A stretch of DNA of 64,000 nucleotides from Paraglaciecola sp. MB-3u-78 (lineage in GTDB: Bacteria; Pseudomonadota; Gammaproteobacteria; Enterobacterales; Alteromonadaceae): assembly GCF_002835935.1 (NCBI RefSeq), contig NZ_PJCF01000004.1, positions 620,001 through 684,000 of the forward strand, given 5' to 3'. Both the position numbers and the translations under genes were made by a program. Every line of letters starts with the position of its first letter. Position 1 is the first letter of the stretch. Below, in pieces: positions 4,164 through 58,981 of this stretch. A model generated the notes under the pieces. That model had not been told where the DNA came from. It saw nothing but the letters and a program-made list of their open reading frames with translations, and did not search any database.

Positions 4164-7100
4164 TTGTCTTCAGCACAATCATCACAATCATCACAATCCA
4201 AACAAGAAAGTAGCGTTAAACAACTTTCCAGTGATATCGCATCTTGTATGTCTAAAGACAAATTTAGGCTTTTTTCCCGTTTGCGAAAATTTCACAGCCT
4301 AACTGCAGATAAAAAACCAGAACATTTATCCAAACTACAACATGATGTAGAAAAATCAGCTCAAATTTATGCTTCTAGACTAGCCCAACGTCCAGAAATT
4401 GATTTTCCTCCCTTACCCGTTTGTGAAAGGAAAGATGAAATAGCAGAGGCTATTGCTAATAATCAAGTGGTCATCATTGCAGGCGAAACAGGCTCAGGGA
4501 AAACCACACAAATACCCAAAATATGTTTAGAACTCGGCAGAGGAGTTGGCGGTTTGATTGGTCATACTCAGCCTAGACGTCTTGCTGCTAGAACTGTGGC
4601 CAACCGTATTGCTGAAGAATTAAAGACCCCACTTGGGCAACAAGTGGGGTTTAAAATTAGATTTTCAGACCATGTATCTGATAGAACCTACATCAAATTG
4701 ATGACAGACGGTATTTTGTTGGCTGAAATTCAACAAGATAAATTTTTAAGTCAATATGACACGATCATCATAGATGAAGCCCATGAGCGTAGTTTAAACA
4801 TTGATTTTATTTTGGGTTATCTAAAACAACTTTTGCCTAGACGTCCCGAACTCAAGCTGATTATTACTTCGGCGACTATTGATCCATTACGTTTTTCTAA
4901 ACATTTTAACGATGCACCGATGATTGAAGTCAGTGGCAGAACTTACCCTGTAGAAATGCGCTACCGGGAAATTGAAAGCAGCGATTACGATCAGATCCAA
5001 GCAATCACCGAAGCCGTTAATGAACTTTTGACCGAAGCCGGTGGTGATATTTTAGTGTTTTTGAGTGGAGAGCGTGAAATACGCGATACTGCTGATGCAC
5101 TAAACAAACAACAATATCGCAATACAGAAGTGTTACCACTGTATTCAAGGTTAAGTAACAGCGAACAAAACAAAGTTTTTTCTGCACACTCTGCGAGGCG
5201 AATTGTACTTGCTACCAACGTTGCCGAAACGTCACTGACTGTACCGGGAATTAAGTATGTAATAGACCCTGGTACCGCTCGAATTTCGCGGTACAGCGTG
5301 CGCAGTAAAGTGCAACGTTTGCCTATTGAAGCTATTTCACAAGCATCAGCGAATCAAAGGGCAGGGCGCTGTGGTCGTGTATCCGATGGTATTTGTATCC
5401 GTTTGTATTCAGAAGATGACTTTTTATCCAGAGATGTGTTTACTGATCCAGAGATATTACGCACCAATTTGGCTTCCGTTATTTTGCAAATGATGTCGCT
5501 AGGGTTAGGTAAAGTGGATGATTTCCCTTTTGTAGAGCCGCCTGATTCCAGAAGTATTAATGATGGTTTTAAATTGCTCGAAGAGTTAGGAGCTATCGAT
5601 AACAAACTGGGTCGCCAAGGATTAACGCACCAAGGTAGACAACTAGCCAGACTTCCCATTGACCCTAGATATGCACGTATGGTGATCGAAGCCGCGAAAC
5701 AAAATTGCCTAAGTGAAGTACTGATTATTGCTGCGGGATTGAGCATTCAAGATCCTAAGGAAAGACCTCAAGATAAGAAACAACAAGCTGACCAAATGCA
5801 TGAGGATTTCACTAATAAAGAATCTGATTTTCTTGGGTTTTTTCAGCTATGGAAAGGTTTTAAAGAACAACAGCAAGTCTTATCATCAAGTCAATTACGT
5901 CATTGGTGTAAGAAACACTTTATCAATTTTATGCGGATGCGCGAATGGCAAGATATTGTCAGTCAACTTAAAAAATCAGTCGCAGAGTTAGGTTTTGGTA
6001 TTACTTCGCAACAGGCTGAGTATCAAGCTATCCACCAAGCTATTGCCTCTGGTTTGTTATCCCATTTAGGCAATAAAGATACAGACCGTGAATACTTGGG
6101 TGCCCGTAATAGCCGATTTAAAATTTTCCCCGGTTCTGCTTTAGCTAAATCTCAACCTAAATGGACTATGGTGGCTGAGTTAGTTGAAACAGCACACCTG
6201 TTTGGTCGAGTGGCAGCTAAAATCGAACCAGAGTGGATTGAGCCGCTGGCTCAACACTTAATCAAAACAGAATACTCCGAGCCACACTGGTCAAAAAAAC
6301 AAGGAGTGGTGCAAGCTTTTGAAAAAGTGAGTTTATATGGGTTGATACTGGTAAACCAAAGGCGAAAAAATTATAGCCAGATTGACCCAGAGATCTGCAG
6401 AGACATATTTATACGGGAAGCACTCGTTAATATGGAGACTAAATTAAACTTTGCCTTTTTGTCACTTAATCAGAAAATGATAGAAAATATTGAAGATTTA
6501 GAGGACAAAAGTCGCAGACGTGACCTTCTAGTAGATGAAGATACCTTAGTCGATTTTTATAGTGAAAAAATTCCCAGTCATATTTGTTCTGAAGTCAATT
6601 TTAAGAAATGGTGGAAAAAACAATCTGTTGAAAATCCAGGTGTGCTTAATTTCGATCCTAAAGCCTTACTTAAGAAAGATACCGGACATATCGACGCTAT
6701 GTCATTCCCAGAAACCTTTAGACAAAATAATCTTACTCTAGGTTTAGATTATCATTTCGATCCTAAAGATGAAGACGACGGTGTGAGTTTGATGGTGCCT
6801 TTAGCACTTCTCAATCAAGTGACTCCTGCGGGCTTAGATTGGCTTATTCCGGGGTTACGTCATGAACTTATCGTAGCCTTAATCAAAGCGTTGCCAAAAT
6901 CATTAAGGCGAAATTTTGTGCCTGCACCCAATTACGCGGATGCTTGTTTGTCGGATATGCCGCAACTCGATAAGCAAGGTAACCCTGTAGCATTTTTAAG
7001 CGCTTTGTCTTTAAAATTAAAACGCATGACAGGTCGCGAGCTGGAAGCCAGTGAATGGCAAATAGATAAATTACCGCAACACTTAACGTTTAATATCAAG

Positions 7101-45603: not shown

Positions 45604-46119
45604 TTAATATTGTTTTCTATATCGAGTAAATGACAAGCCCGCTAAACCCAGCAGCACCAATATAACCGAACCGGGCTCGGGGACTGTCACGCGGTTGACA
45701 AATTTGATACCCGAGCCGGTGAACGAATCGTAGTACGAAGGCGGGGTTATAGTATCGTTAAATAAATAATACTCCGCTGTGCCACTAAACCGATTAAAAC
45801 GGAAAAAACTTACTGGGTTCGGCGCAAATGCATAAAATTCCGATGTGACCATTACACCGCCACTAACCGAAAATAAATTGTTAGAAACGTTATAAAACGG
45901 AGCTAAAAAATCGATGTAATCCGCATCCCCGTCGACAATAGTGATAATGACGCCGCTGGCCGCCTGCAATGAGGCGTTGTCCACTAACCCCAATATCTCG
46001 CCGCTAATCTTACCATTACTAGATTCCCACGAAAAATCAAATATCAACGACGCATTGGCGACGCCCATCCATCCCGCTAATGCTATTGCTCCTAAAAGCT
46101 TTGTGACCTTCTTAAACAT
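45604..46119 (-). CDS. PEP-CTERM sorting-domain protein
   Basis: The 171-residue protein has a signal peptide (LLGAIALAGWMGVANA), a beta-rich body and the C-terminal tail VPEPGSVILVLLGLAGLSF followed by arginine and lysine. This is the PEP-CTERM signal recognised by exosortase, which transfers such proteins to the cell surface. AAGGA precedes the ATG. A sigma-54 promoter and a T-rich element lie upstream. No exosortase gene is in the window. Confidence 0.85.
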   Translation of the reverse strand: MFKKVTKLLGAIALAGWMGVANASLIFDFSWESSNGKISGEILGLVDNASLQAASGVIITIVDGDADYIDFLAPFYNVSNNLFSVSGGVMVTSEFYAFAPNPVSFFRFNRFSGTAEYYLFNDTITPPSYYDSFTGSGIKFVNRVTVPEPGSVILVLLGLAGLSFTRYRKQY

Positions 46120-46176
46120 ACCGTTATCCTTTTAAAAATTAATTAAATGGAACTACAAGTCGTGCGCTCAAAAATA

Positions 46177-46193
46177 TGCAAGAAAAAAGCCAC
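46177..46193 (-). promoter_or_regulatory. Sigma-54 promoter of the first PEP-CTERM gene
   Basis: On the minus strand GTGGCTTTTTTCTTGCA has GG and GC separated by exactly ten bases, the -24/-12 pattern. It lies about 60 bases before the start codon, leaving a leader of about 45 bases. Confidence 0.75.
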
Positions 46194-46257
46194 ATAAATA
46201 AAACCAATCTAATTCAACAGCTTAGTATTCTTAATACAATAAACATGGGATTAATTG

Positions 46258-46273
46258 TGTAAAAAAACCTGAC
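46258..46273 (-). promoter_or_regulatory. GTCAGG-T7-ACA element of the first PEP-CTERM gene
   Basis: On the minus strand this reads GTCAGGTTTTTTTACA. It lies about 66 bases upstream of the -24 GG. The same element occurs identically at 57878 and with two changes at 58346. A binding site for a sigma-54 enhancer-binding protein is the natural reading. Confidence 0.65.
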
Positions 46274-52630: not shown

Positions 52631-52738
52631 TTAAGATTGACGTCTTCTAAGTGCAAAACCTAAACCAGCAAGCCCTAATCCAAACAAAGCGATGGTTGAG
52701 GGTTCTGAGACAGCCTGTGAATCACCATATATGTCCTG
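52631..52738 (-). pseudogene. Orphan PEP-CTERM tail behind the M19/HYR gene
   Basis: The minus strand encodes GDSQAVSEPSTIALFGLGLA then GLGFALRRRQS and a stop: a complete PEP-CTERM signal. It starts just after the stop of the M19/HYR gene but in another frame and without a start codon. It is most simply the lost sorting tail of that protein. Confidence 0.8.
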
Positions 52739-52742
52739 TTAA

Positions 52743-55700
52743 CTAATGCTTAGCTACCGTCACCGTAGTTTCAGCAACCGTGGTATTACCGGTCTCATCA
52801 GCGCAAATAACCTCTACGGTGTAAGTGCGACCGTCTCTAGATCCATCGCGTTCAGAACGTAACTCGATGTTCAAGGTCGCTCCAACCTCGGTTAAATCCC
52901 ATCCGTAGTCCTCGGCGGTATTACCGTCACCGGTGTCATTCAAATCCTCGCTGCTCGATATTTTATTGATCCTGCACACGGGCATAGAATTGTCACAGCG
53001 ATCGCTAGTTATCACCGCTACGGCAACCTTATTCATCTTGTGATTAGGTGGCCACAGATTGGGCATTGATACGGTGACGGATTCAATCACCGGCGGGGTA
53101 GTGTCTTCAATAACAACATTGCTGCTGCAACTGGCCGTCAATTCCACTTCATCCGTCGCTACATACTCCAACGATGTTAAGCCCATGGGAAAGCTGGCCA
53201 TGTCGTGGGTCGAGAGATTCACGGCGGCACAAATATCCGTACCCGTGGCCATGGCTGGTGTCACAGTAGCACTTCGGTTGCCAGTACATTCAGCCACAAT
53301 ATTCGCCGGGCAAGTGATCTCCGGTGGCGTAGTATCCTCAATGGTGACCGCAAACCCACAGGTGCCCTCGTTCCTTGCGGCGTCAAAGCCGCTACAGCTG
53401 ACCGGGGTCGCACCAAAGCCAAAGGGGTGCCCGGGGGCCACACTACAGCCAGCAAATTCAGCGCCCGCACAGTTATCCTGGACTATTTCTCGAGGCTCGA
53501 AGGGTACAGAGGTACCTCTCAAGTCGCCCGCGGCATAAGGCCATGGCAATTCCTCAGGCCATTCATCAGGTTTAACCGGGGCGGGCTGTGTCACTGGCTT
53601 ACATTCAGCGACGATATTTTCCGGACAGTACAGGGTAGGCGGCGTATCATCAACGACCGTCACGGTGCCAGTACAAGAAGAGAGTAAATTACCACAACTA
53701 TCAGAACCGCCGGCACCTAAAATAACGGCTGTAGTGCCCAGTGCATAGGGGGCATCAGGCGTTTGTGGAAACGTAAAGTCGACAGTATTTTCGTCCGCAA
53801 TGGTGGCGTCCCGGTCTGATTCACAGAACGCATTGGCACTGACGATAATATCCTGGCAACCTACAGCCGTATTGGTGGACGGCAACGGAATATGCTGACC
53901 CTCTCCACGTTTCCAGACATTGACAAAACCCATTGCCGAGTTAAACAGCGGTGCAAGTTCAGCATTCGATATTCCAATCCCACTGAGGTCAGCGACCATA
54001 TCGGGCAACAAGCCAACATGAGCCAGACCATCGTTATTAAAGTCGAAGGTACGGGTACCGGTCTTTTGCGCTTCAAATTCATCAAAACCTGCCAGCTCGA
54101 AGGGGTACGCGAGGCGGTTATTGGCCAGCCCCTGCTTGGCTCGTTGCACATGGTCTTGAGCACAGGCATCGTAACCAAAGCGCGGTCCCACATGACCAGC
54201 CACGCCATTAAAGTCACTGCCCATAGCCACCGGGCCTTTCATGACATCCACCCCATACTGATACATCTGTGCCCAGGTCTTAGAGGAATGTGTACAATCG
54301 TTGGTAATGGTATTGCCATTGGCGCTGGAATACTGCACTGGACCTTCACCGTAATTGCCTTCCTGCTGATCATCTTTCAGCATTGCGCCGATCATGCCTC
54401 CCAGCTCGGCAATGCGCTCAAGGTGGGCCCGTGTGCGCATCCGCTCGTGGCGCACTTCTGGCTGGTTGAGGTCAAAAAACTGGACGTGGCTGGCGATCAC
54501 CGGCCGACTCTGCTCTTCTGCAATAGCCAGTGTGGCATCGAGTGCCTTGTTGGACATATGATCAACATCCACCAGGATGCCCTTGGTCATCATATATTCG
54601 ATGGTACTCGCACCCAAGCTTGTCAATCCATTATGGTTACAGTGGGCAGCTGCGGGAGGGAGAGAAGGGCCTTCGGGTAAATTATCAAATGAGATTAAAG
54701 CCAGCACCCAGGGCAAGAAAGGTCCAAGCTCCAGTCCATAGCCCTGATCACCGCAGTCTTCCACCGTCCACCAGGCATTCTCGGAAGCCGCATTACCCGC
54801 ATGAATCGCATCCTGCCAGGTAGCTGGCGCACCAAATGCGTTGTCGAAATTGTGAATAGGGAAAATCACGCGAACGCCCTTATCGTAATACTTATCGACT
54901 TGCTGCTGGACATACTCCTCGGGAGTTTGCGGCCGGGTATCCATCTCAATGATGACCTGACCATCGTCATCCAATTGCTCGAGGTCGTCCTCATCAAGCA
55001 CCGGTATTTCCATTCCTTCTTCATCAAGTACTGCAAATTCAAACTCGCCAACCGGGCAACCATCTTTTTTGCAATCGAACAAATTGGCCACTTCGATACC
55101 GAGTACCACCGCCAGTTTGCCCTCATCAATGATAGCCTGGGCGTCGCTTGGGTCTGTCACAATCCGGAACCATCCCATGCCCTTACCGCCGTGTTTATCA
55201 TCAATAAACTTTTGGAAGGCAATGGTGGCGTCAATTTGGGCATCGACAGGGCCCATCTCATCGGCGCAATCAACACCATCGTCTTCGGCCCCCGTAGACA
55301 GACACAACGCCTCGTTGGTGACAGCAAATTGCACCATCAAGCGCAGCCCGCCCCGCCACGCGCGCTCCAGCCATTTGTAGTACATCTGTTGATGGGTAGT
55401 ACTGCTCCAGGTGGGCCAGGTATTAAAAGTAGGTGAGCCATAGTTAAGCCCTCCCACGGGCTCAAAATTATGGGAACCTTTAAGGTCACTGGTACCGAAA
55501 CCCAAAGCATCCCCTGTTAAACCATGGATACCATGCAGGTCGAAATCATCCTCTTTACTGAGTGCCTTATTGAAGCCCAAATCTATGCCTTGGTCATCCA
55601 CGGCATAGGGCTTACCGGCCAGCACTTTGCCACCATGAGCCAGGTGGCCAAACATATGGGCGTGCAGGTCGGCATAGCCCTTACCACTTATGGCATCACA

Positions 55701-56504
55701 GGCTTCAACCTCAGTCTCACCCAGCCAGCCAGTGGTGGGTTCCGGATAATCAGAATATGGCTTGCCCAGGTCGACGCAGCTGTGCCCTGCCGAAACCGGG
55801 TTAGCAACCAGGTTACCGATCCCGCAGGAGGAATCTCCGGCCACACCCGGGACTTTAGTCAAGCCAGCATTGCAAGCACGACTATCTGTCGTATATTCAC
55901 CAATGAAGTCACAGCAGGCTCGCTGACCATTACCGCCGCAAGCGCTAGGCTTGGTACACCAACCACTGGAAGGACCAAACTCCAGTGGATCCTGATAGCG
56001 GTCACCGCCAATTTCAATAAGGCCCGCCGCACAGGACTTGCCAGCAATGAGACCGTCGCCGATGGTGCAGGCTCGCTCACCTTCATTGCCACAGGACGTT
56101 GGTTTCCAGCAGGTTCCCGCGGAAGCGCCGACGAACCACGAGGGGCTGGGGCACGCACCGCCGTACACATCCAGCACTTCGATATTGCCTGTATCACAAG
56201 GGGTGAATCCTTCTGTCTCACCTACACAACAGGCGCGCTGACCGTCACCACCGCATTGATCCAGATTATCCGGAGTACTAAAACCACAGGTACCATCCGG
56301 AAAGCCACCACACTGAAAGCTCCATACCGCTCCAGTTTCCCGAAGACCGGAATCACAAGAAGGTACTCGTTCACTCAGGCAACAGGCACGCTCACCAAAC
56401 CCCCCGCAGCCAGCAAGGGCTTCTGAAGTCATAAGGGTAAGCAACAGTATTGCCAGGCACAATTGCAGTGGCGTCAGCAGATTCTTCTTCAGTAGGATTA
56501 ACAT
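52743..56504 (-). CDS. Secreted M19-dipeptidase-like protein with cysteine-rich and HYR domains
   Basis: The 1253-residue protein has a signal peptide (LQLCLAILLLTLMTSEALA). Residues about 33-243 hold four cysteine-rich repeats opening CGG-x-G-x-RAC. Residues about 270-870 resemble membrane dipeptidase (M19): metal motif DLHAHMFG (H281, H283), PVIASHVQF and AMGSDFNGV. The C-terminus has HYR-type repeats (DDTPPTLYCPENIVAEC, EDTTPPEITCPANIVAEC) and LWPPNHKM. Its GC content is well above its surroundings, which points to recent transfer. The sorting tail lies out of frame behind it. Confidence 0.82.
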   Translation of the reverse strand: MLILLKKNLLTPLQLCLAILLLTLMTSEALAGCGGFGERACCLSERVPSCDSGLRETGAVWSFQCGGFPDGTCGFSTPDNLDQCGGDGQRACCVGETEGFTPCDTGNIEVLDVYGGACPSPSWFVGASAGTCWKPTSCGNEGERACTIGDGLIAGKSCAAGLIEIGGDRYQDPLEFGPSSGWCTKPSACGGNGQRACCDFIGEYTTDSRACNAGLTKVPGVAGDSSCGIGNLVANPVSAGHSCVDLGKPYSDYPEPTTGWLGETEVEACDAISGKGYADLHAHMFGHLAHGGKVLAGKPYAVDDQGIDLGFNKALSKEDDFDLHGIHGLTGDALGFGTSDLKGSHNFEPVGGLNYGSPTFNTWPTWSSTTHQQMYYKWLERAWRGGLRLMVQFAVTNEALCLSTGAEDDGVDCADEMGPVDAQIDATIAFQKFIDDKHGGKGMGWFRIVTDPSDAQAIIDEGKLAVVLGIEVANLFDCKKDGCPVGEFEFAVLDEEGMEIPVLDEDDLEQLDDDGQVIIEMDTRPQTPEEYVQQQVDKYYDKGVRVIFPIHNFDNAFGAPATWQDAIHAGNAASENAWWTVEDCGDQGYGLELGPFLPWVLALISFDNLPEGPSLPPAAAHCNHNGLTSLGASTIEYMMTKGILVDVDHMSNKALDATLAIAEEQSRPVIASHVQFFDLNQPEVRHERMRTRAHLERIAELGGMIGAMLKDDQQEGNYGEGPVQYSSANGNTITNDCTHSSKTWAQMYQYGVDVMKGPVAMGSDFNGVAGHVGPRFGYDACAQDHVQRAKQGLANNRLAYPFELAGFDEFEAQKTGTRTFDFNNDGLAHVGLLPDMVADLSGIGISNAELAPLFNSAMGFVNVWKRGEGQHIPLPSTNTAVGCQDIIVSANAFCESDRDATIADENTVDFTFPQTPDAPYALGTTAVILGAGGSDSCGNLLSSCTGTVTVVDDTPPTLYCPENIVAECKPVTQPAPVKPDEWPEELPWPYAAGDLRGTSVPFEPREIVQDNCAGAEFAGCSVAPGHPFGFGATPVSCSGFDAARNEGTCGFAVTIEDTTPPEITCPANIVAECTGNRSATVTPAMATGTDICAAVNLSTHDMASFPMGLTSLEYVATDEVELTASCSSNVVIEDTTPPVIESVTVSMPNLWPPNHKMNKVAVAVITSDRCDNSMPVCRINKISSSEDLNDTGDGNTAEDYGWDLTEVGATLNIELRSERDGSRDGRTYTVEVICADETGNTTVAETTVTVAKH

Positions 56505-57405: not shown

Positions 57406-57877
57406 ATGTATGATTAATCGGATGATTGTTTTTCACTCAATATAATCTGATAGTTTGAATTATCTAACGACCGCTATAGGTCGTTAGCTGTCCTTTTGGG
57501 CTGCGAACTAGACTGACAATTTATCGCGAAAATCAGTTTAACTGAAGTGACTCCGAATGATGGGTATTGGCACATTTTCGACGCTCAGCGAATGGCTCCA
57601 ATGAGCGATCAGCGGACATACGTCTAGGCGGTGTAATATAACAAGGTCACACCGCGTTAGCGGAATATCAATCGACGCCTTTTCAAGTGCTGTGCCCCCT
57701 TGATTTTAAGTATGTATGCTTTGAGCGACGCACTGTCAGGTTCTTTTACATAATTTAACTCTGGAATATTCCCTTGAAATTGATAATTCATTGCCTATTT
57801 AACGCTGTAACCTGCGTAGCCAGTCACACTTATCATCATACGGAGTTGATTTCAGTCAATTACTTAGTGATTATTGT

Positions 57878-57893
57878 GTCAGGTTTTTTTACA
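57878..57893 (+). promoter_or_regulatory. Orphan GTCAGG-T7-ACA element
   Basis: GTCAGGTTTTTTTACA is identical to the element at 46258. No -24/-12 sequence with proper spacing follows in the next 100 bases, so its gene may have been lost. Confidence 0.5.
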
Positions 57894-58345: not shown

Positions 58346-58361
58346 GTCAGTATTTTTTACA
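58346..58361 (+). promoter_or_regulatory. GTCAG-rich element of the second PEP-CTERM gene
   Basis: GTCAGTATTTTTTACA matches the element at 46258 in 14 of 16 bases. It lies 62 bases upstream of the -24 GG, nearly the same distance as for the first gene. Confidence 0.6.
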
Positions 58362-58422
58362 TCTAAAGCTAGAAAAAATTTAATGAATGTTTAGATGTTT
58401 GTAATAATAAAATATTTTTATT

Positions 58423-58438
58423 TGGCCTGATTATTGCT
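58423..58438 (+). promoter_or_regulatory. Sigma-54 promoter of the second PEP-CTERM gene
   Basis: TGGCCTGATTATTGCT has GG and GC ten bases apart, the -24/-12 pattern. It lies 40 bases before the start codon. Confidence 0.75.
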
Positions 58439-58477: not shown

Positions 58478-58981
58478 ATGAAAGGTTTGATACATATGTT
58501 GCGTTATTTTTGCATCGCTATTCCGATGTTGTGTTACGCGTCGTTCTCCCATGCGGGGTTGATAACTTCGTTCCATTTTTCCATATTGGGATCACCATTT
58601 GAACTTTCGTGGGTATTACCTTCATCTCCTACCCCCGACTTGTACAATACAAGTTATTTTGAGATAAATGACGTGAGTGTTTACAACGTGGCTACCGGTG
58701 AAACACTATCGGCCACGTTTTACGGCTATGCTAATCCCCAATGGGGCGGATTCGAGTTGGCCAACAACGTTCTTAACATCATAAGAATGGAGGGCTCAAA
58801 GATTTATTCAGGATCTCCAAATAACCCCGTATTTGTTAATGGAACGTATTTCCACACCGACTACGCCGATAAGGTACTTGTGGTGGCAGATGTAATTGAT
58901 GTCCATGAACCCGCGTCGCTCGCACTTTTTGCACTAGGATTGTCAGGTTTGGCATCACGTCGATTGAAGAAGAAAGCTTAA
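58478..58981 (+). CDS. PEP-CTERM sorting-domain protein
   Basis: The 167-residue protein has a signal peptide (FCIAIPMLCYASFSHA), a beta-rich body and the tail VHEPASLALFALGLSGLAS followed by RRLKKK. The expected proline-glutamate-proline is reduced to HEP, which is tolerated in the family. AAGG precedes the ATG. It shares promoter layout with the gene at 45604 and, like it, has an RT remnant converging on its 3' end. Confidence 0.8.
   Translation: MKGLIHMLRYFCIAIPMLCYASFSHAGLITSFHFSILGSPFELSWVLPSSPTPDLYNTSYFEINDVSVYNVATGETLSATFYGYANPQWGGFELANNVLNIIRMEGSKIYSGSPNNPVFVNGTYFHTDYADKVLVVADVIDVHEPASLALFALGLSGLASRRLKKKA

Follow-up and report, generated by a model that had tools for sequence, protein, structure and literature searches.

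In this study, we show that the box and the sigma-54 element in front of a PEP-CTERM gene of Paraglaciecola sp. MB-3u-78 form a real layout and not a chance one. Judged from its sequence, the region is very probably a PrsR-type, sigma-54-dependent and possibly IHF-assisted promoter. The elements, their geometry and genes for PrsK, PrsR, RpoN, IHF-alpha and XrtA are present. The gene lies in a stretch of 64,000 nucleotides (the window; contig NZ_PJCF01000004.1, positions 620,001 to 684,000), to which the positions given below refer. Its promoter region and product comprise the following features:

46258-46273, minus strand: PEP-CTERM box (motif 1), the presumed PrsR enhancer site, GTCAGGTTTTTTTACA, exact match
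46212-46224, minus strand: IHF-like site TAAGCTGTTGAAT, which differs from YAANNNNTTGATW at one position and starts 32 bases upstream of TGGC
46177-46192, minus strand: sigma-54 -24/-12 element TGGCTTTTTTCTTGCA, TGGC-N7-TTGCA, from the sequence and a pattern search
46127-46131, minus strand: AAGGA, a likely ribosome-binding site 7 bases upstream of the ATG, from the sequence
45604-46119, minus strand: PEP-CTERM gene, 171 amino acids, with a signal-peptide-like start and a C-terminal sorting signal
45616-45684, minus strand: PEP-CTERM sorting signal VPEPGSVILVLLGLAGLSFTRYR, TIGR02595 match at G000:C1:665616-665684 (G000, the source genome)

On the minus strand, the GG of the sigma-54 element occupies 46191-46190 and is followed by ten bases and the GC at 46179-46178, and 57 bases separate the end of TGGC-N7-TTGCA from the ATG. 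The box is 65 bases from the T of TGGC and 66 bases from GG. The initial annotation had described GG-N10-GC with GTCAGGTTTTTTTACA 66 bases upstream and had taken this for the RpoN-type layout of a PEP-CTERM gene; sequence and pattern searches agree with it in the distance, and the layout is borne out by the box, the sigma-54 element and a tail above curated cut-offs (TIGR02595, 22.2 bits, cut-off 16; PF07589, 23 bits, cut-off 20.7). The spacer site was scored against the IHF consensus YAANNNNTTGATW.

The sigma-54 pattern alone is weak evidence. With up to one mismatch it matches 37 times in the window against 36.25 expected, which is no excess, and chance is not rejected for this pattern by itself. 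The box with up to three mismatches matches 7 times in the window against 1.41 expected, a number reached by none of 100 shuffles; these copies include two exact ones and one with a single mismatch. Across the whole genome the same search gives a moderate excess only (188 matches against 138 for the backwards pattern), and the joint pattern GTCANNNNNNTTTACA-N45..68-GGC-N8-TGC is found 13 times against 0 backwards. A chance origin of the box is rejected by the window shuffles together with the backwards control of the joint pattern.

The window contains a second PEP-CTERM-like gene with several upstream boxes:

58478-58981, plus strand: second PEP-CTERM-like gene, 167 amino acids, tail HEPASLALFALGLSGLASRRLKKK
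58423-58438, plus strand: sigma-54 element TGGCCTGATTATTGCT before this gene
58346-58361, plus strand: proximal box GTCAGTATTTTTTACA, two mismatches, 61 bases before TGGC
57878-57893, plus strand: distal box copy upstream of this gene, exact
57735-57750, plus strand: distal box copy GTCAGGTTCTTTTACA upstream of this gene, one mismatch

The distal boxes at 57878 and 57735 start 468 and 611 bases upstream of the start of the proximal box. For this gene no TIGR02595 match was reported and NF038125 matches weakly (20 bits, cut-off 85); a good IHF-like site is absent from the spacer of its promoter (58346-58438). Elsewhere in the window, a PEP-CTERM tail VSEPSTIALFGLGLAGLGFALRRRQS is encoded at 52637-52711 on the minus strand, in another frame and just downstream of the stop of ORF 52743-56504, which has 1253 amino acids and whose own end is without a PEP-CTERM tail.

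Throughout the source genome, 57 boxes with up to two mismatches are found, 23 of them with a scored sigma-54 element no more than 130 bases downstream. Twenty-one of these 23 pairs have spacings of 51-65 bases, two of the 21 lying inside ORFs. In the mirror-orientation control, with the sigma-54 element upstream of the box, the count is 4/57, and three of the four are one repeated 16-mer. The box consensus and matrix were made from the 23 distinct paired genome sites, including C12:423451, which lies inside an ORF and is probably a chance match. Allowing three mismatches in the stretches examined gives 25 pairs; with C12:423451 and C9:50545 (both inside ORFs) removed and C8:28871 added, 24 credible pairs result, which cover the examined stretches plus C8:28871 and are not a full genome census. 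The gap is 51-53 bases in four pairs and 61-65 in the others. The initial annotation had suggested a genome search for box and sigma-54 element before PEP-CTERM genes, and this association is found: by eye, the downstream frames of 16 of the 24 credible pairs are PEP-CTERM-like, although in one case the start is read in another frame than the tail. The other eight pairs precede secreted proteins with a shared signal peptide (five) or twin-arginine starts (two), or are without a visible gene (one). The listing of TIGR02595 matches in the genome at E <=0.001, a threshold that misses for example window gene 58478, has 11 entries. Seven of them have a complete box and sigma-54 pair upstream; in two a box is present without the sigma-54 pattern at 45-74 bases, and two are short fragments with neither.

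Several repeats and an unusually small product were noted in the course of this census. A PEP-CTERM protein of 55 amino acids, barely more than a signal peptide and a sorting signal, is encoded behind one pair (L069, G000:C2, box 95959). The sequence GTCAAGTTTTTTTTCA occurs six times with identical flanks (tac...tta), at five places of G000:C12 and at C23:520904; the six copies look like a separate repeat and not like the box. A single 16-mer, GGGCTCTGCCATCGCT, is found on the opposite strand about 46-59 bases upstream of three boxes (L066, L056, L059). One unit of box, promoter and PEP-CTERM gene occurs both on contig C23 and on contig C6 (L049, L073), by duplication or assembly redundancy.

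The same arrangement was sought in named genomes. The pattern GTCAGGNTTTTTTACA-N50..70-TGGC-N7-TTGC matches at 70 places in a collection from which the source organism's own records may be absent. Judged by record title, the places lie in genera of the alpha-, beta- and gammaproteobacteria, with one record labelled Deltaproteobacteria. Five sites have no downstream ORF of >=40 amino acids in the stretch. The 65 downstream ORFs scanned match Pfam PEP-CTERM in 49 cases and TIGR02595 in 42 (E <=0.1), and they have hardly any sequence in common (mean column identity 5%). Named counts are not counts of independent events, since near relatives are included (L112, L125 and L134; L104 and L114; L120 and L144).

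The spacing between box and promoter falls into two classes about one DNA turn apart, a division that open-access searches did not find in print. The gaps of the named sites are 50-54 (18/70) and 59-65 (52/70), with none at 55-58 or 66-70 though 50-70 was allowed. At 34 sites in the other PrsR genomes of the survey described below, gaps of 46-54 (12 sites) and 59-65 (22 sites) were found, though 45-67 was allowed.

Aligned on TGGC, the spacers have TAA-N4-TTG in common, which on the opposite strand corresponds to the IHF consensus WATCAANNNNTTR. All spacers were compared with dinucleotide shuffles, identical spacers being counted once (69 of the 70 named spacers are distinct; 22 are distinct in the source genome). 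The exact 13-base consensus occurs in 11 of the 69 named spacers (shuffle mean 0.6, maximum 5; 200 runs), and 39 match with up to one mismatch (shuffle mean 10.3, maximum 17; 200 runs). In the source genome, where paralogous promoters are included, 16/22 spacers contain a match when one mismatch is allowed (shuffle mean 6.4, maximum 14), but only one contains an exact match. The IHF-like site has two favoured starts, 30-33 bases ahead of TGGC for one orientation (22 loci) and 19-20 bases ahead of it for the other (11 other loci); in widened windows of 29-34 or 17-22 bases, 33/69 named spacers have a match and 36/69 have none. These positions, fixed on the source and named sets, were then applied to the 34 other sites, which come partly from the source genome's family: 18/34 of these held-out spacers carry an IHF-like site there (shuffle mean 0.96, maximum 5; 500 runs). 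A third cluster, in forward orientation and starting 16 bases before TGGC, was rejected; each of its six loci also belongs to the eleven that match at 19-20 in the opposite orientation, so that it represents a near-palindromic site read twice.

The IHF-like site appears to keep its distance to the promoter and not to the box. A short gap is found in 17 distinct spacers, which contain eight forward IHF-like matches. Six of the eight begin 31 bases ahead of TGGC, the start also seen in the long class, and these six are about 21 bases from the box, against 31-32 in the long class, a difference of about one helical turn. Since four of the six loci come from related records, Emcibacter-like or unclassified alphaproteobacterial, the independent cases behind the short class are few. 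Of the held-out sites with a short gap, 4/12 (L236, L253, L261, L272) have an IHF-like site at the preset distance to TGGC.

About half of the spacers, those of held-out genomes included, have an IHF-like site at a fixed position, and IHF may well bind there. TAA-N4-TTG could also be no IHF site and serve instead a second activator or another nucleoid protein, or be simply curved A+T-rich DNA. We consider this rather unlikely, although the IHF reading comes from sequence comparison only and 36/69 named and 16/34 held-out spacers show no match of up to one mismatch at the favoured positions. Exact 13-base matches are more than twice as many as in any shuffle, and the sites occur in both orientations, at different loci, mirrored about an axis 19-20 bases before TGGC. 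Such mirrored positions would suit a pseudo-symmetric bending dimer.

The proteins that the proposed promoter would need are encoded in the genome. A profile search identified PrsR (TIGR02915, 697 bits, cut-off 502.6), with PrsK in the neighbouring ORF (TIGR02916, 604 bits, cut-off 300; L065), and exosortase A (TIGR03109, 307 bits, cut-off 208), which is accompanied by XrtA-type export, chain-length, kinase and glycosyltransferase genes. The three components for which the initial annotation had asked one to look, prsK, prsR and an exosortase, are therefore all present, each above its cut-off. RpoN scores 510.8 bits (TIGR02395, cut-off 277.35) and IHF-alpha 164 bits (cut-off 120.25), the IHF search having covered the alpha subunit. 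For a candidate PrsT, the first 128 amino acids, which are the part contained in L064, give 92.6 bits (TIGR02917), against a cut-off of 312.2 set for the whole protein. The PrsR sequence carries GESGTGKE, a Walker A motif, and GAFTGA, the motif of sigma-54 contact.

The distribution of box and PrsR was surveyed in 299 genomes of the phylum, 27 with PrsR over the cut-off and 272 others. The strict box and sigma-54 pattern is found in 8/299 genomes, namely in 7/27 with PrsR and in 1/272 without, and never backwards; the seven all belong to the family of the source genome, of which the survey includes eight members, all with PrsR. A looser pattern matches in 14/27 PrsR genomes (47 sites) against 3/27 genomes without PrsR (3 sites), with one backwards match per group. 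Genomes without PrsR are here those with no TIGR02915 match at E <=1e-140, and many of them are incomplete; the 27 used for comparison were hand-picked and consist of 26 members of the same order and class and of G160, which already matched. The site in G160 is a good one and is followed by a PEP-CTERM-like ORF, and the other two sites lie in G+C-rich sequence with no IHF-like site. Leaving out the source genome, the PrsR genomes contain 34 looser sites; by eye, a PEP-CTERM-like ORF follows 26 of them and is absent behind 8, several of which are probably chance matches.

No looser-pattern site is found in 13/27 PrsR genomes, including 11/12 of family f38, all twelve members of which have PrsR over the cut-off (G024, G087, G127, G131, G155, G214, G223, G229, G241, G250, G268 and G283). 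With PrsR in 12/12 and the box in 1/12, the PrsR of f38 may read another site. More generally, since many PrsR genomes are boxless, PrsR and the box are not tied to each other everywhere or the box has diverged there.

These boxless genomes also bear on whether the window promoter is a sigma-54 promoter whose box is bound by another NtrC-family activator, PrsR being a mere neighbour. Fifteen places of the source genome match the activator ATPase part of the PrsR model, and the box occurs before genes other than PEP-CTERM genes as well. Yet just one of the fifteen passes the PrsR cut-off, and the concentration of strict sites in PrsR genomes, though confined to one family, makes another activator improbable. 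Least credible of all is that duplication accounts for most of the shared sequence and that the box is functionless: three paralogues of the window gene (88/178, 93/181 and 94/185 aligned columns identical) do have similar spacers and might have been copied with their upstream DNA, as might the unit found on C6 and C23, but box and spacing recur at the 70 named sites and before unrelated families, and the almost unrelated downstream ORFs rule out simple duplication as the whole explanation.

Besides PEP-CTERM genes, two further groups stand behind boxes. Five genome pairs precede proteins that have a common signal peptide, MKN(I/V/R/K)VLKxCxTxLxLS, and glycine-alanine-rich repeats. They belong to a secreted family near boxes with near-identical signal peptides and diverging mature parts, several of them matching PF11999 (ice-binding-like):

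L067, 1139-2497: member of the signal-peptide family
L055, 8821-10254: member of the signal-peptide family
L056, 4994-5293: member of the signal-peptide family
L062, 3264-3737: member of the signal-peptide family
L048, 6331-7362: member of the signal-peptide family
L051, 3249-4784: member of the signal-peptide family
L078, 473-1735: member of the signal-peptide family

No PEP-CTERM tail was seen in any of these seven. The L055 member reaches the PF11999 cut-off, L048 and L067 are below it, L051 has no match and L078 was outside the Pfam scan. A relative at C78:3999 (L062) likewise has a score at the cut-off or above; the element downstream of its box has GT instead of GC.

The second group consists of HPr-rel-A-like cassettes. 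In L064 (1824-7950) two of them diverge, each behind a box and a sigma-54 element, with gaps of 51 and 63 bases, and each with the order twin-arginine-start ORF, small ORF, HprK-related kinase A and an ORF that we name nucleotidyltransferase-like. The kinases score 367.7 and 303.9 bits (cut-off 200). For TAT_signal_seq, one twin-arginine ORF gives 15.9 bits (cut-off 16.7) and no match was reported for the other; neither of the small ORFs (L064:3788-4057 and 5675-5935) matches TIGR04353, the PqqD family peptide chaperone. Behind 5/70 named sites lie cassettes with this gene order (L105, L112, L125, L134 and L159, from Emcibacter or unclassified alphaproteobacteria). Three of these were scanned and are all over the TIGR04352 cut-off (259-268 bits, cut-off 200), and their TIGR04353 scores are 32-40 bits (cut-off 35), one of the three being over.

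How far this link extends was examined at HPr-rel-A loci of 40 of the 50 other genomes with TIGR04352 over the cut-off (14 with PrsR, 26 without); the ten left out include several with loci near contig ends. A loose upstream scan matched in 3/14 genomes with PrsR and 1/26 without, and the controls matched about as often (antisense 2/14 and 0/26, backwards 3/14 and 2/26), so that these counts alone show nothing. The scores do separate: G015 (19.5 bits) and G126 (17.7 bits), both before twin-arginine ORFs, lie above all controls (<=16.2 bits). These two likely cases among the 40 loci both come from genomes of the source family. With the box so rare, a general rule that HPr-rel-A is driven by PrsR is rejected; the link holds for the source family and the five Emcibacter-like loci. 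TIGR04352 itself is over its cut-off in 15/27 PrsR genomes against 36/272 others, as raw counts not corrected for kinship.

The following mechanism would account for these elements. PrsR, phosphorylated by its kinase PrsK, is predicted to bind the box GTCAGGTTTTTTTACA, and IHF would bend the spacer at the site of fixed position. The bend would bring the PrsR oligomer to RNA polymerase-sigma-54 waiting at TGGC-N7-TTGCA, and the ATPase of PrsR would then open the promoter. The product of 45604-46119 would be exported and, along with exopolysaccharide, sorted by exosortase A. That PrsR binds, that IHF binds and bends the DNA, that the promoter depends on RpoN, that the product is sorted, and the signal, are what we infer from the elements described. 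More widely, the data suggest that many PEP-CTERM promoters may have a DNA-bending site at a fixed place and that the same switch may serve other secreted proteins. To the fuller proposal, a three-part machine of fixed geometry together with PrsR control of secreted proteins not sorted by the exosortase (ice-binding-like proteins and, in some lineages, HPr-rel-A cassettes headed by a gene for a Tat-like protein), we give a little better than an even chance.

The result confirms a 20-year-old prediction, made in 2006, in one more genome. If the proposal is true, the fixed IHF-like site and helical phasing would explain the preferred spacer lengths and would sharpen genome searches for PrsR targets. 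The box points to a likely regulator and a likely context, the building of a surface matrix, for the ice-binding-like family, and likewise for the cassette of HprK-related kinase A, PqqD-like, nucleotidyltransferase-like and Tat-like proteins. HPr-rel-A would then be part of the same surface programme in some lineages.

IHF-assisted sigma-54 promoters of the NtrC/NifA type have an activator site, an IHF site and the -24/-12 element in this order. At the window promoter, the activator box, the IHF-like site and the -24/-12 element follow each other in the same order. A difference from the NtrC/NifA type lies in the geometry of the PEP-CTERM promoters: where an IHF-like site is present, in roughly half of the spacers, its distance to the promoter is constant, and the box is found in two phases about one turn apart. 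The HPr-rel-A system (TIGR04352/TIGR04353) is matched by the cassettes with kinase A behind boxes in the five named loci, whereas at other HPr-rel-A loci the box is rare. No paper on HPr-rel-A was found in the open-access literature.

Experimental work on a PEP-CTERM gene of this kind comes from Aquincola tertiaricarbonis RN12, for which the relevant parts of a 2023 paper report RpoN1 dependence of pepA and a mapped -24/-12 start (PMC9850573). That start lies behind TGGCAC / CTGCTT, with a predicted enhancer sequence (PMC9850573). In contrast to our case this is another organism, with experiments, and its enhancer is merely mentioned in the parts concerned (PMC9850573). An open-access text search did not place PMC9850573 among the papers that pair PEP-CTERM with IHF. 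PEP-CTERM and the word IHF were not found together in any one open-access paper; where PEP-CTERM and integration host factor co-occur, the mentions, as far as the matching text goes, are unrelated and mostly reference-list entries. The text of PMC1569441 has no occurrence of IHF, integration host factor or words beginning phas-. The fixed IHF-like site, the two spacing classes and the extra targets were accordingly not found in print in open-access searches.

The closest relative is the class described by Haft et al. (2006). In its account of the regulation motif, that paper gives a 17-base motif 1 that ends in TTTACA and is sometimes repeated, a spacer with a mean of 62.8 (32-92) and a motif 2 with -24(GG)/-12(GC), a sigma-54 element 23-221 bases before the start codon (PMC1569441). 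PrsR is named there as the presumed binder of motif 1, and the sites belong mostly to single-gene units with long upstream regions, in genomes with PrsK, PrsR, PrsT and EpsH (PMC1569441). A few sites before other genes are mentioned and are left unnamed in the section on the regulation motif (PMC1569441). A single mean spacing is given in that account, whereas two classes about one turn apart are found here. Compared by description, the agreement is close: GTCAGGTTTTTTTACA ends in TTTACA, its spacer has 65 bases and it precedes a PEP-CTERM gene from outside coding sequence, and the repeated motif 1 has its counterpart in the distal box copies of the window's second gene. The window promoter is an instance of the class described in 2006.
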